64,000 nt of DNA from Intestinimonas butyriciproducens (lineage in GTDB: Bacteria; Bacillota; Clostridia; Oscillospirales; Butyricicoccaceae): the NCBI RefSeq assembly GCF_016901775.1, contig NZ_JACJKW010000001.1, positions 186,001 through 250,000 of the forward strand, given 5' to 3'. The notes under the pieces were generated by a model. The model was given only the letters and a program-made list of their open reading frames with translations, did no database searches and had not been told where the DNA came from. This document shows positions 37,531 through 41,985 of this stretch, in pieces (the first letter of the stretch is position 1; each line of letters starts with the position of its first letter). The translations under genes and the position numbers were made by a program.

Positions 37531-39996
37531 TCAGGAAAGGGCCGGAGCAAAAGCAGGCTCCCGGTCCTCTGTTTTTTTCAGCAGCACCCCGTCATCATCC
37601 AGGGTAAACAGCACACAATCCCCTTTTTTCACATGGCCTTCCAACAGCTCCATGGCGGCCAGGTCCTCAATCCGGGTCTGTACCGCCCGGCGCAGCGGCC
37701 GTGCTCCATAATCCGGGTCAAAGCCGATTTCGGCCAGGTGATCCAGCAGAGCGCCGTCATAGGAGGCTTCCAGTCCGGCCCTCCGGAGCCGCTCCACCAC
37801 CTGATCCATCAGACGGGCAGCGATCTGGCGGACCTCATCCTTCTGCAAACGGGTAAAGACGATGGTGTCGTCGATGCGGCCCAGAAACTCCGGGCGGAAG
37901 GTCTTTTTCAGCTGGGCCAGCAGCTCTTTTTTCATCTGCCGCCCCTCTGCTTCTCCCTGTGCGCCGCCAAAGCCCAGGGGACGCTTGTTTTGCAGCTGGC
38001 TGGCTCCCACATTGGAGGTCATGATGATGATGGTGTTTTTAAAATCCACCCGGCGGCCCTGGGAATCGGTGAGAATGCCGTCGTCCAGTACCTGCAAAAG
38101 CAGATTGAACACATCGGGGTGGGCCTTTTCGATCTCGTCGAAAAGCAGCACGCAGTAAGGTCTGCGCCGCACTTTTTCGGTGAGCTGTCCCGCTTCTTCA
38201 TAGCCCACATATCCCGGCGGAGAACCCACCAGCTTGGAGACGCTGTGGCGCTCCATATATTCGCTCATGTCCAGACGGATCAGGGATTTTTCCTCCCCGA
38301 AAACGCTGTAGGCCAGCGCCTTGGCCAGTTGGGTTTTTCCCACGCCGGTGGGACCCAGGAAGAGAAAGCTGCCCACGGGACGGTTCGGGTCCTTCAGTCC
38401 CACCCGTCCCCGGCGAATGGCTTTGGCCACGGCCTGCACGGCTTCCTCCTGTCCCACCACCTGGCGGTGGAGTTCCTCTTCCAGATGGGCCAGGCGAAGG
38501 GCTTCGTCCTCGGTCATCCGGGCCACCGGAATACCGGTGAGCAAAGCGGCCACCTGGGCGATGTCCTCCAGGCCGATGGCTCCGGAGATCCGGCTCCGGG
38601 AAAGGGCCCATTGCTCTTTTTGCTCTTCCAGATGGGTCCTCTGCTGCTTTTCTTCATCCCGCAAAGCAGCAGCCCGTTCAAAGTCCTGGGCATCTGCTGC
38701 TTCTTCCTTTTCCTTTTCCGTTTGGGCAATGGTATCTTCCAACACCTTGAGAGATGGCGGCGGCGTCATATTTTTCAGCCTGGCCCGGGAAGCCGCTTCG
38801 TCCAGCAGGTCCAGGGCTTTGTCCGGCAGATACCGGTCGGGAATATACCGGGCGCTGATCTCCACCGCCCCCCGGATGGCCTCGTCAGTGATCTTGATTT
38901 TGTGATGGGCTTCGTATTTGTCCCGCAGGCCCAGCAGGATTTTTTGGGCGTCCTCCTGGGAGGGCTCTTCCACCGTCACCGGCTGGAAGCGGCGCTCCAG
39001 GGCGGCATCTTTTTCAATGTGCTTCCGGTATTCCTGGGTGGTGGTGGCGCCGATCACCTGGAGTTCGCCCCGGGAAAGGGCAGGTTTTAAGATGTTGGCG
39101 GCATCCACTGCTCCTTCAGCCGCCCCGGCCCCCACAATCATGTGCAGCTCGTCAATAAAGAGGATGATGTTTCCCGCCTGTTTCACTTCCTGGAGAGCAT
39201 TTTTCAGCCGCTCTTCAAATTCACCCCGGTATTTGGCCCCGGCCACCATGGCGCTGAGGTCCAGTGTAATCAGCCGCTTGCCGCTGAGGGTTTCGGGAAC
39301 ATCCCCCTGAACGATCTTTTGGGCCAGACCCTCGGCAATGGCGGTCTTGCCCACGCCCGGCTCCCCGATGAGACAGGGATTGTTTTTCTGGCGCCGGGAA
39401 AGAACCTGCATCACCCGCTGGATTTCCTGCTCCCGGCCGATCACCGGATCCAGTTCGCCCTCCCGGGCCCGGGCGGTCAGGTCTGTGCCGAACTGTCCCA
39501 GAGCCTTGAGTGTGTGCTTCTCCCCGCTTTTCCGGCCCTCTCCCGGATTTGCAAGGGGGGATTCTTCTCTCCCTCCCTCGTCCAGCGTCCGGCAAATGGC
39601 CCGGGTGTCGGCGCCCAAAGTCCGCAGCAGCCCCATGGCAGCGCTGTCCTTCTCCCGGAGAATCGCCATGAGCAGATGCTCGGTGCCGATGTATCCCGCC
39701 CCCTGGCCGGCTGCTTCGGCAGCAGCCCGTTCCATGATCTCCTTGGCATGGGGCGTCATACCCATGGGCTGGACGCCGGGAGTTCCTTTGCCGATGGCCC
39801 GGACGATGGCGGCGGTGAGGGCGTCCCCGGAAACCCCATAGGACAGGAGTATTTTGGAGGCCACTCCCCGTTTTTCTCCCAAAAGGCCCAGAAGAATATG
39901 CTCCGAACCCACATAGTTGTGGCCCAGGGCGCTGGCCGCCTCATAGGAAAGGCGCAGGGCGTTTTGGGCTTTTTCCGTCCATCTGTTGTTTGCCAT
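37531..39996 (-). CDS. clpC: ClpC ATPase, unfoldase of the ClpCP protease
   Basis: A 821-residue Hsp100 unfoldase that feeds proteins to ClpP. The N-domain holds two Clp_N repeats whose TEH/SEH turns (VGSEHILLG and IGTEHLLMA) contain the two glutamates that bind phospho-arginine in B. subtilis ClpC. AAA domain 1 has Walker [10 protein letters not shown], the middle coiled segment includes a UVR-like stretch ([16 protein letters not shown]), and AAA domain 2 has GPTGVGKTQ. It closes the ctsR operon, 22 bp after mcsB. Confidence 0.96.
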
Positions 39997-40018: not shown

Positions 40019-41029
40019 TCAGTCCTCCAAGGGCTTTTGGGAAAGGACGCGGCGGAAGCAGCGGGCCCGGGCTTCCTCTTCCTCCTGAGGGGAAAGGCTC
40101 CGGCCTGCCCGCAGAGTCAGAAGAGCCGGATGGATCTCTTCCTCCAGCCCCATGAGCTCTCTGGGAGAAAACCCGGGCAGAATGTCCTGGGATGCTCCCA
40201 GCCGCAGCTGGGAGACAGCCAGCTGCCCTTCCTCCCAATCCATCCGCCGGGCGCAGCGGGCAATGCCCATGGCCCGCCATACCCGGTCTTCCATCACCCC
40301 GGGGTGCTGGCGGCGGAATGCCTGCCGCCAGGCCATTTCCCGGGATGCAATTTCCTGAGCGGACTCATTGACCTTGTGAATGATTTCTTCTTCCTCCATG
40401 CCCAGTGTCATCTGGTTCAAAAGTCGATAGCTTTCCCGGCGGCCGTAGGCATTTTCCATTTTTATGCCCACCTGCCGGAGCGCAGCCGCCACATTCCGGA
40501 TCTGGCCGGTGCGGGTGAGCAGGGGCAGATGGAGCACCACCGAAGCCTGCAATCCGGTGCCGATACGCTGGGGATCCTGGGTGAGGAAACCCCACTGCGG
40601 GTCATAGGAAAAATCCAGGCTCTCTTCCAGCAGCGTTTCCAGGCTCATGGCCTCTTTTAGCAGCCGTTCCAGATCAGGGGCTTTTCCCTGGGCCTGGATG
40701 GTCAGGTGGTCTTCCCCATTGACCAGAATCCCCAGACTTTTGTCCTGGCCCCAGATCAGGCCGCAATGGTCTTTTTCTTCCATATCCCGGGAAATCAGCC
40801 CCTGGACCACCAGGCCCTGGCGGCAATCGGGGGAAAGATCCTGCAAAGGTACCAAAGCCATCTGGGCGCCCGATGCCCGCTTGGCTGCATCCTCGGCCCG
40901 ATGCAGCAGGCGAAGGGCCTCTGCTTTCTGCAAACGGGCACCAAAGGGCAGACCGTCCACATTGCGCCCCAGACGAACCTGGGCGCCCAGGGCCAGATAG
41001 GGGTCGCTCAGCCATGCGTTCTGGGTCAT
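40019..41029 (-). CDS. mcsB: McsB-like protein, probable pseudo-arginine-kinase
   Basis: Phosphagen-kinase fold protein at the mcsB position. True McsB phosphorylates protein arginines to mark them for ClpCP. Fold landmarks survive: VRLGRN near 18-23, NGEDHLTIQ near 104-112, GTGLQASVVLHLP near 157-169, and LNQMTLG. But compared with B. subtilis McsB, the catalytic Cys167 aligns with Asp152 (LTQDPQ), the catalytic Glu212 with Arg197 (AYGRRE for IYGEGSE), and nucleotide-binding Arg positions read Gln, Thr or Glu. At 336 residues it is shorter at the C-terminus. Kinase activity is therefore unlikely. It overlaps mcsA by 4 bp. Confidence 0.85.
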   Translation of the reverse strand: MTQNAWLSDPYLALGAQVRLGRNVDGLPFGARLQKAEALRLLHRAEDAAKRASGAQMALVPLQDLSPDCRQGLVVQGLISRDMEEKDHCGLIWGQDKSLGILVNGEDHLTIQAQGKAPDLERLLKEAMSLETLLEESLDFSYDPQWGFLTQDPQRIGTGLQASVVLHLPLLTRTGQIRNVAAALRQVGIKMENAYGRRESYRLLNQMTLGMEEEEIIHKVNESAQEIASREMAWRQAFRRQHPGVMEDRVWRAMGIARCARRMDWEEGQLAVSQLRLGASQDILPGFSPRELMGLEEEIHPALLTLRAGRSLSPQEEEEARARCFRRVLSQKPLED

Positions 41030-41514
41030 ATATTTCCCTCCTTGGGGGTGCTTTCCATCTGATGCAGCGCATCCCGCAAAAGGGCGGCTTTCTCATATTC
41101 TTCCTGCTTCACTGCCTGCTGAAGCTGCCGGCGCAGACGCAGGATGTTCTGCTGTCCCTCCTGACTCCGGGGGACTTGCCCCTGGTGGAAATGATCTCCC
41201 TGCATTTTGGAGATCAAGGGGGCAAAAAGATCCCGGAAGGTTTCATAACAATGGGCGCAGCCTGGTTTTCCGGTGCGCCGGATCTCTTCCTCCCGGGCGC
41301 CGCAGCGGCAGACCCGGCCGGGGGAAGGCGCCGCTTCCGGTGCAGGGGGAAGCAGATCCGCCAGGGAAGGGGCCCCATTGCCCTTGCAGGGGATGGCTTC
41401 TTCCTCTCTGGCGCAGTCCGGACACAGCCACATGGTCACCCACCCGTTTTCCGAAAAGCAGCGGAAAGTGCCTTCTCCTTGATTCTTGCCACATTTCTGG
41501 CACAGCATACCCAT
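41026..41514 (-). CDS. mcsA: McsA zinc-finger regulator
   Basis: A 162-residue adaptor that in B. subtilis activates McsB and helps control CtsR. Zinc knuckles are visible as CQKCG and CPDCA near the N-terminus, then CRCGA and CAHC, with a C-terminal UVR motif (EYEKAALLRDALHQME). All expected elements are present even though the neighbouring McsB looks catalytically dead. It starts 15 bp after ctsR. Confidence 0.92.
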   Translation of the reverse strand: MGMLCQKCGKNQGEGTFRCFSENGWVTMWLCPDCAREEEAIPCKGNGAPSLADLLPPAPEAAPSPGRVCRCGAREEEIRRTGKPGCAHCYETFRDLFAPLISKMQGDHFHQGQVPRSQEGQQNILRLRRQLQQAVKQEEYEKAALLRDALHQMESTPKEGNI

Positions 41515-41529: not shown

Positions 41530-41985
41530 TTATTGCTCTGCCGCCAGAGCCGCCAGAGCGGCCCCCAGCATTTCCGCCCGCAGCCGGGGACGGAGGAGCT
41601 GAGGAACGGCGGAGAGAGCCTGGTCTCCCAGGCAGGCCTTCAGGGCGCAGAAGCATTCCTCTCCCAGGATCCCTGCCTTGTGCAGGTCGTACAGAAGCAG
41701 CTGGGCTGCCGACTGATCCACCTGCTGGCCCAATGCGGCCACGGTGTGCTGCAAAAGGGCAGAGGGTCCCATGGGCACCCGGACAATGCGGATATATCCC
41801 CCGCCGCCACGGCGGGATTCCACACTGAACCCCCGGGCCGGGGAAAACCGGGTCTCGATCACATAGTTGATCTGGCTGGGGGCGCAGCCGAAGCGGCTGG
41901 CCAGCTGGCTGCGCTGCAGCTCCACGGCATCCTGGCCGGTGAGCTGCTCGGTGATGAATTGAGCGATGAGATCGGATAGTTTCAT
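41530..41985 (-). CDS. ctsR: CtsR heat-shock repressor
   Basis: Winged-helix repressor of class III heat-shock genes, 151 residues. The N-terminal DNA-binding domain includes LASRFGCAPSQINYVIETRF, and the glycine-rich wing RRGGGGYIRI is the thermosensing loop that lets go of DNA on heating. The C-terminal dimer and McsB-contact region follows. It is first in the operon, and its own operator overlaps its promoter region. Confidence 0.95.
   Translation of the reverse strand: MKLSDLIAQFITEQLTGQDAVELQRSQLASRFGCAPSQINYVIETRFSPARGFSVESRRGGGGYIRIVRVPMGPSALLQHTVAALGQQVDQSAAQLLLYDLHKAGILGEECFCALKACLGDQALSAVPQLLRPRLRAEMLGAALAALAAEQ

Follow-up and report, generated by a model that had tools for sequence, protein, structure and literature searches.

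An apparent McsB pseudokinase in an intact ctsR operon of Intestinimonas butyriciproducens, and probable recurrent conversion of McsB to a pseudokinase in its order, accompanied by loss of YwlE

McsB marks proteins with phospho-arginine (pArg) for ClpCP. The literature treats it as a protein arginine kinase and also as a Clp adaptor, two activities that are hard to separate (review, PMC5506225). In B. subtilis, reduced McsA binds McsB and prevents it from acting on DNA-bound CtsR, and oxidised McsA lets go, so that McsB strips CtsR off the DNA with the kinase off; the ClpC-activating adaptor role of B. subtilis McsB requires kinase activity (PMC5506225). In the S. aureus complex, the McsA zinc finger touches the McsB loop Y147-Y153, which positions the catalytic Cys157 (PMC12467219). 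The corresponding C167S mutant of B. subtilis McsB is the standard kinase-inactive form, and seven arginines (R29, R31, R34, R125, R176, R207 and R337) are each essential, as R-to-K mutants have shown, while mutants of R86, R255, R272, R281 and R341 exhibit only weak autophosphorylation that McsA no longer stimulates (Lilge et al. 2020, PMC7235348). R337 and D338 hold the pArg that stabilises the McsB octamer (PMC8370763). No description of McsB pseudokinases was found in the open-access literature, to which our search was confined.

The window analysed here, a stretch of 64,000 nucleotides of the I. butyriciproducens genome, carries ctsR, mcsA, mcsB and clpC one after another on its minus strand. 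The ctsR start codon is preceded, at a distance of 28 bases, by an exact CtsR operator (Table 1), and the intact ctsR operon described in the earlier note is upheld. The exact operator is present once in the genome that includes the window (G000) and once in G001, the sole other genome of the genus compared, each time in front of ctsR, suggesting that CtsR controls mainly its own operon; the regulon seems to be reduced to that operon in both genomes. The predicted product of the mcsB-like gene matches PF00217 (131 bits) and its best solved relatives are all McsB, but it misses the NCBIfam McsB equivalog cut-offs (227.4 bits vs 385, and 184.2 vs 500) and shares 29% identity with the known McsB kinases of B. 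subtilis, Geobacillus and Staphylococcus. By descent the gene is an mcsB orthologue: it occupies the mcsB place in ctsR-mcsA-mcsB-clpC and, in a tree built without the catalytic columns, its product is sister to the canonical McsB of G001 (SH-aLRT 96). Three long open frames on the plus strand, antisense to mcsB (40037-40660, 40647-41000 and 40706-41062), resemble shadows of a GC-rich coding strand rather than genes.

Table 1. Features of the ctsR operon and of the mcsB active-site codons in the window. Residues lost are numbered as in B. subtilis McsB.
Feature	Position	Strand	Remarks
mcsB-like gene	40019..41029	-	336 aa; predicted McsB fold with an active site almost certainly disabled (pseudokinase)
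ctsR repressor gene	41530..41985	-	HTH and C-terminal domains intact
mcsA	41026..41514	-	retains the UVR motif and the cysteine pairs of the zinc finger; 4-base overlap with mcsB
clpC	37531..39996	-	full length; N-domain and both AAA modules
CtsR operator GGTCAAAGAAAGTCAAA	42014..42030	-	exact consensus
D152 codon, place of Cys167	40574..40576	-	alignment
Lid loop E192-E199 (ENAYGRRE), shortened	40433..40456	-	R207 replaced; 5-residue in-frame deletion
Q17 codon, place of essential Arg29	40979..40981	-	alignment
T110 codon, place of essential Arg125	40700..40702	-	alignment
Q161 codon, place of essential Arg176	40547..40549	-	alignment
E317-E318 codons, place of R337-D338 (RDxxRA phospho-arginine pocket)	40076..40081	-	alignment

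An AlphaFold2 model of the window McsB, built with 49 homologues (pLDDT 94.2, pTM 0.90), was compared with solved structures using VIA-align and superposes on pArg-bound McsB 6FH3 with a Z score of 40.9 and 1.8 Å over 329 residues. The next matches are 6TV6, 6FH1, 6FH2 and the McsA complexes 8GQD, 8WTC and 8WTB. Together with the PF00217 match, this identifies a phosphagen-kinase fold with the McsB dimerisation domain, and the whole McsB fold, dimer domain included, is predicted to be intact, in keeping with the open frame and the fold landmarks noted earlier. The window protein resembles canonical McsB of B. subtilis, Geobacillus and Staphylococcus (6TV6, 6FH1-3, 8GQD, 8WTB) in its place in the operon, full-length fold, dimer domain and McsA-contact loop.

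It differs from them in the active site. The protein was aligned with McsB of B. subtilis, whose numbering is used here (the sequence used agrees with the PDB chain), and with 133 relatives. Around the catalytic cysteine the alignment is ungapped, with GYLTSCPTNVGTGLRASV in B. subtilis and GFLTQDPQRIGTGLQASV in the window protein, and Cys167, present in practically all of the 113 canonical McsBs surveyed, is replaced by Asp. The Glu212 position is Arg197, which lies beside the deletion in the GEGSEA lid, R207 is replaced by Glu (Glu or Asn, by alignment), H92 by Gly, and R29, R125 and R176 by Gln, Thr and Gln, respectively. The pArg pocket motif RDxxRA reads EExxRA. Hence, five of the seven essential arginines (R29, R125, R176, R207 and R337) are replaced, none of them by lysine. 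E121, R31 and R34 are retained, as are R255, R272, R281 and R341, which are shared with canonical McsB. Among 51 near-invariant columns of the canonical proteins, with ligand columns of our own choosing, the window McsB keeps 5 of the 20 catalytic or ligand columns and 26 of the 31 others (Fisher p 4e-5). The changes listed in the earlier note, Cys167 to Asp, Glu212 to Arg and nucleotide-contact arginines to Gln, Thr or Glu, are all recovered in the alignment with the 133 relatives; retention of E121 and loss of the RDxxRA pocket had not been mentioned there. With essential residues replaced and point mutants published for them, loss of the kinase is as certain as sequence allows, and the window McsB has almost certainly lost arginine-kinase activity.

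The genome (2.58 Mb, 99.5% complete) encodes one PF00217 protein, and a search with the canonical protein of the genus-mate found no second McsB; as the genome searches with PF00217 and PF05848 gave no signal in the B. subtilis control, their results were supplemented with protein searches and with the operator pattern. No second McsB was found in the other altered genomes defined below. Unlike canonical McsB systems, the genome also lacks the phosphatase YwlE, as no protein matched the LMWPc family (PF01451) and the YwlE P-loop signature CxGNTCRSP was not found. Loss of the enzyme, as first proposed from the window alone, is therefore strongly supported by the residues, by the published point mutants and by the lack of a second McsB and of YwlE. 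G001 carries a canonical McsB with all of the residues and a YwlE-type phosphatase.

To place the window protein, 133 near-complete McsBs of the order were aligned, and those with Cys167 and/or Glu212 changed were classed as altered. L066, where the apparent alteration arises from a truncated reading frame, was omitted from the altered set. Canonical residues were found in 113 of the 133, and the remaining 20 are altered (the window McsB and those of G108, G173, G100, G276, G413, G222, G358, G397, G144, G287, G417, G271, G353, G160, G305, G348, G184, G145 and G243). Severity varies, the change in the pocket of G100 and G276 being mainly Cys to Ser and G348 retaining the Cys. The residues lost also vary among lineages, and no new motif is shared. 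In the tree without catalytic columns, the altered state requires at least 9 changes, 4 of which are forced by well-supported branches. A single ancestral paralogue family of dead McsBs was considered and rejected, since altered proteins fall in several clades and the window McsB lies beside that of its canonical genus-mate. Comparison with relatives thus shows a state that recurs across the order, with the window allele itself found in only one species; near relatives with the same allele were not detected in the named genomes scanned. Of 80 further McsBs taken from named genomes, which are chiefly Bacillota, 79 have the canonical Cys167 and Glu212. A Clostridiales McsB from outside the order (L310) has Cys167 replaced by Tyr and keeps Glu212 and the arginines.

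The altered state is accompanied by loss of the phosphatase signature, which is present in 52 of 55 canonical genomes, 1 of 20 altered genomes and none of 5 McsB-less genomes (Fisher p 1e-13, kinship ignored). Phylogenetically independent pairs contrasting McsB state with YwlE, of which there are four on supported branches, gave a mean of 3.6 concordant and 0 discordant, too few pairs for significance (p 0.125). The finding extends beyond the earlier note: McsB appears to have been converted to a pseudokinase repeatedly, and the conversion goes together with loss of YwlE. The lone altered McsB with a YwlE-type P-loop signature in its genome is that of G145 (locus L189), perhaps a recent loss. 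Three genomes with canonical McsB (G094, G383 and G330) lack the exact signature and probably carry a variant YwlE P-loop.

The most constant feature of the altered loci is McsA. The mcsA gene adjoins mcsB in 20/20 altered cases, and a UVR-like motif is kept in 18 of the 20 McsAs. The McsA-contact loop of S. aureus corresponds to B. subtilis residues 157-163, a mapping of our own made by counting back from the cysteine. All 20 altered McsBs have a residue of the aromatic class at both 157 and 163 and retain G162, and the regional consensus is 0.76, vs 0.85 in canonical proteins. Likewise, the dimer domain consensus is 0.78 in altered and 0.82 in canonical McsBs, whereas that of the lid drops from 0.92 to 0.32, and Cys167, only four residues past the contact loop, survives in 1 of the 20. 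Two further features were examined as discriminators and set aside. Only 40 of 111 canonical McsAs of the order have an Arg at R96, which is required for kinase stimulation in B. subtilis, and this position is uninformative; the E32 and E106 equivalents of the pArg site in the ClpC N-domain, both kept in the window clpC, do not discriminate, since canonical and altered lineages both have them.

Other partners are less constant. CtsR is missing from 11 of the 17 altered genomes checked, namely six f23 genomes (G108, G173, G271, G353, G160 and G243) and G184, G397, G144, G287 and G417; in G348 its status is uncertain, as the contig ends there, and operators are present. At least six of the eleven, the f23 genomes, are also missing full-length ClpC and have only ClpE-like and ClpB-like matches. 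Neither CtsR nor ClpC can thus be the general reason for keeping McsB, and the constant partner is McsA. Of the partners named in the earlier note, McsA holds throughout, while CtsR and ClpC hold for the window, where both are present, but not as a general explanation. The f23 mcsA-mcsB pairs are a close parallel to the window, with McsA beside a McsB that lacks Cys167 and Glu212 and with no YwlE signature, though they differ from it in the absence of CtsR and ClpC. In f23, pairs without ctsR and clpC were seen at L094, L095, L119, L120, L126 and L187. A TPR-like gene of about 220 aa lies directly 3′ of the pair at L094, L119 and L187, and its product may be a new partner; S1-domain-like and peptidyl-prolyl isomerase-like genes, read by eye, are nearby at L119, L120 and L187.

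Whether the altered genes are maintained was addressed from substitution patterns. The dead McsBs of G108 and G173 differ by 11 nonsynonymous and 62 synonymous changes (dN/dS 0.05, p 5e-34), and for those of G353 and G160 pN is 0.13 and pS 0.79. This indicates that purifying selection maintains the dead protein in both lineages. The window allele occurs in one genome only, and selection on it is consequently not directly measurable; here retention is probable, given that the frame is open, that the fold is preserved and that residues have been kept selectively. The proposal that McsB is retained for a non-enzymatic role is accordingly supported in part, by purifying selection in the two other lineages and, for the window's genome with its single species, only by this indirect route.

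The foremost alternative is that the window mcsB is a relic in decay, arginine phosphorylation having been abandoned and the gene being carried between mcsA and clpC, perhaps through translation coupled to its neighbours, on its way out. We regard this as unlikely, though several observations fit it. The end branch of the window McsB is 1.47, vs 0.32 in its sister (4.6 times longer), dN/dS against G001 is raised, at about 0.5 with dS near saturation, and McsA and CtsR of the operon are likewise fast-evolving, all of which fits weakening constraint. McsB is absent from about every second genome of the family, and in five such genomes that were tested CtsR and the YwlE signature are missing as well. 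Erosion of McsB has gone much further in the f20 lineages. Against decay, the frame is fully open at a synonymous distance to G001 of about 1.2 over both branches, whereas under simulated neutral drift a frame stays open in 5% of cases at 0.1 substitutions per site and in 0.05% at 0.3. In addition, pN (0.41) is below pS (0.60) relative to the diverged canonical sister (p 5e-7), GC by codon position resembles that of clpC, and loss is concentrated in ligand-binding columns. The strong purifying selection on dead McsB in the two other lineages also argues against it.

Further states of the module were seen elsewhere. The f20 McsB-like proteins L102 and L103 (G287 and G417), L100 and L101 have 20-30% identity to the canonical protein, and their eroded genes lie between mcsA and clpC in genomes without CtsR. 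Five near-complete genomes of the same family as the window's (G056, G041, G073, G033 and G060) have no McsB, CtsR or YwlE signature, nor any full-length protein with the degree of identity expected of ClpC, and the whole module appears to have been lost together.

A changed enzyme, in which a rebuilt site binds nucleotide or transfers phosphate to another substrate, is improbable. Replacement of the Cys alone does not always abolish phosphagen kinase activity, a C271A arginine kinase structure exists, and E121, R31 and R34 are kept. However, the phosphate-binding arginines, E212, H92 and the lid have been lost together, the losses are lineage-specific with no common new motif, and a single R-to-K change at any of five such places kills McsB (PMC7235348). 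An ordinary active McsB that has been misaligned, or an artefact of sequencing or assembly, can be dismissed, as nothing was found in its favour and the alignments contradict it: the alignment near Cys167 is ungapped, the fold match extends over 329 residues, and the changes are in-frame, multi-site, codon-consistent and matched by the same state in independent genomes.

The explanation that we favour, and consider reasonably likely, is that the window McsB is a kinase-dead protein with a kept non-enzymatic role, an McsA-bound pseudokinase. Arginine-kinase activity would have been lost while McsB survived in the ctsR operon, still binding McsA through the conserved contact loop and still dimerising, and the McsA-McsB complex would work without phosphate transfer. 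How it would act can only be guessed at. Perhaps it serves as a partner switch, in which McsB released by oxidised McsA would remove CtsR from the operon's own operator, and/or as a Clp adaptor, bringing clients to a Clp ATPase independently of a kinase, with ClpC, ClpE or ClpX acting without a pArg tag. The parts needed for kinase-independent action, CtsR and its operator, the McsA cysteine pairs, the contact loop and dimer domain of McsB, and ClpC, are all in the window. In B. subtilis, C167S McsB partly supports turnover of MgsR, for which ClpX rather than ClpC is implicated, and ClpE binds McsB (PMC7235348). As activation of ClpC in B. subtilis depends on the kinase, the simplest ClpC adaptor model is disfavoured, and ClpC in the window's genome must be activated otherwise. 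Set against the pseudokinase explanation, the kinase-independent roles of McsB are minor in B. subtilis. The retained role may also differ among lineages, some of which have neither CtsR nor ClpC.

A close precedent is the C167S mutant, which is kinase-dead but keeps part of the effect on client turnover, reported as a kinase-independent adaptor function (PMC7235348). That protein is a laboratory point mutant with an otherwise intact pocket, whereas the window McsB has lost Cys167, Glu212, the lid, R29, R125, R176, R207, H92 and R337-D338, so that the whole pocket, together with the phosphatase, has been lost by evolution. Bacterial Ser/Thr pseudokinases likewise keep a kinase fold and lose the catalytic residues (PMC12599244), but theirs is the unrelated protein-kinase-like fold and that of McsB the phosphagen-kinase fold.

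For the order as a whole, we judge it an evenly balanced proposition that McsA-McsB has repeatedly (at least 4 times, probably 9) given rise to a pseudokinase that is bound to McsA and selected for a function of its own, free of phospho-arginine and YwlE and, in some lineages, of CtsR and ClpC. In lineages that are without catalysis and phosphatase but have a selected McsB, the kinase function would have been separated from the non-kinase functions in nature. A selected dead McsB implies that the McsA-McsB complex is useful without phospho-arginine, and the annotation "protein arginine kinase" in such genomes is not evidence of phospho-arginine signalling.
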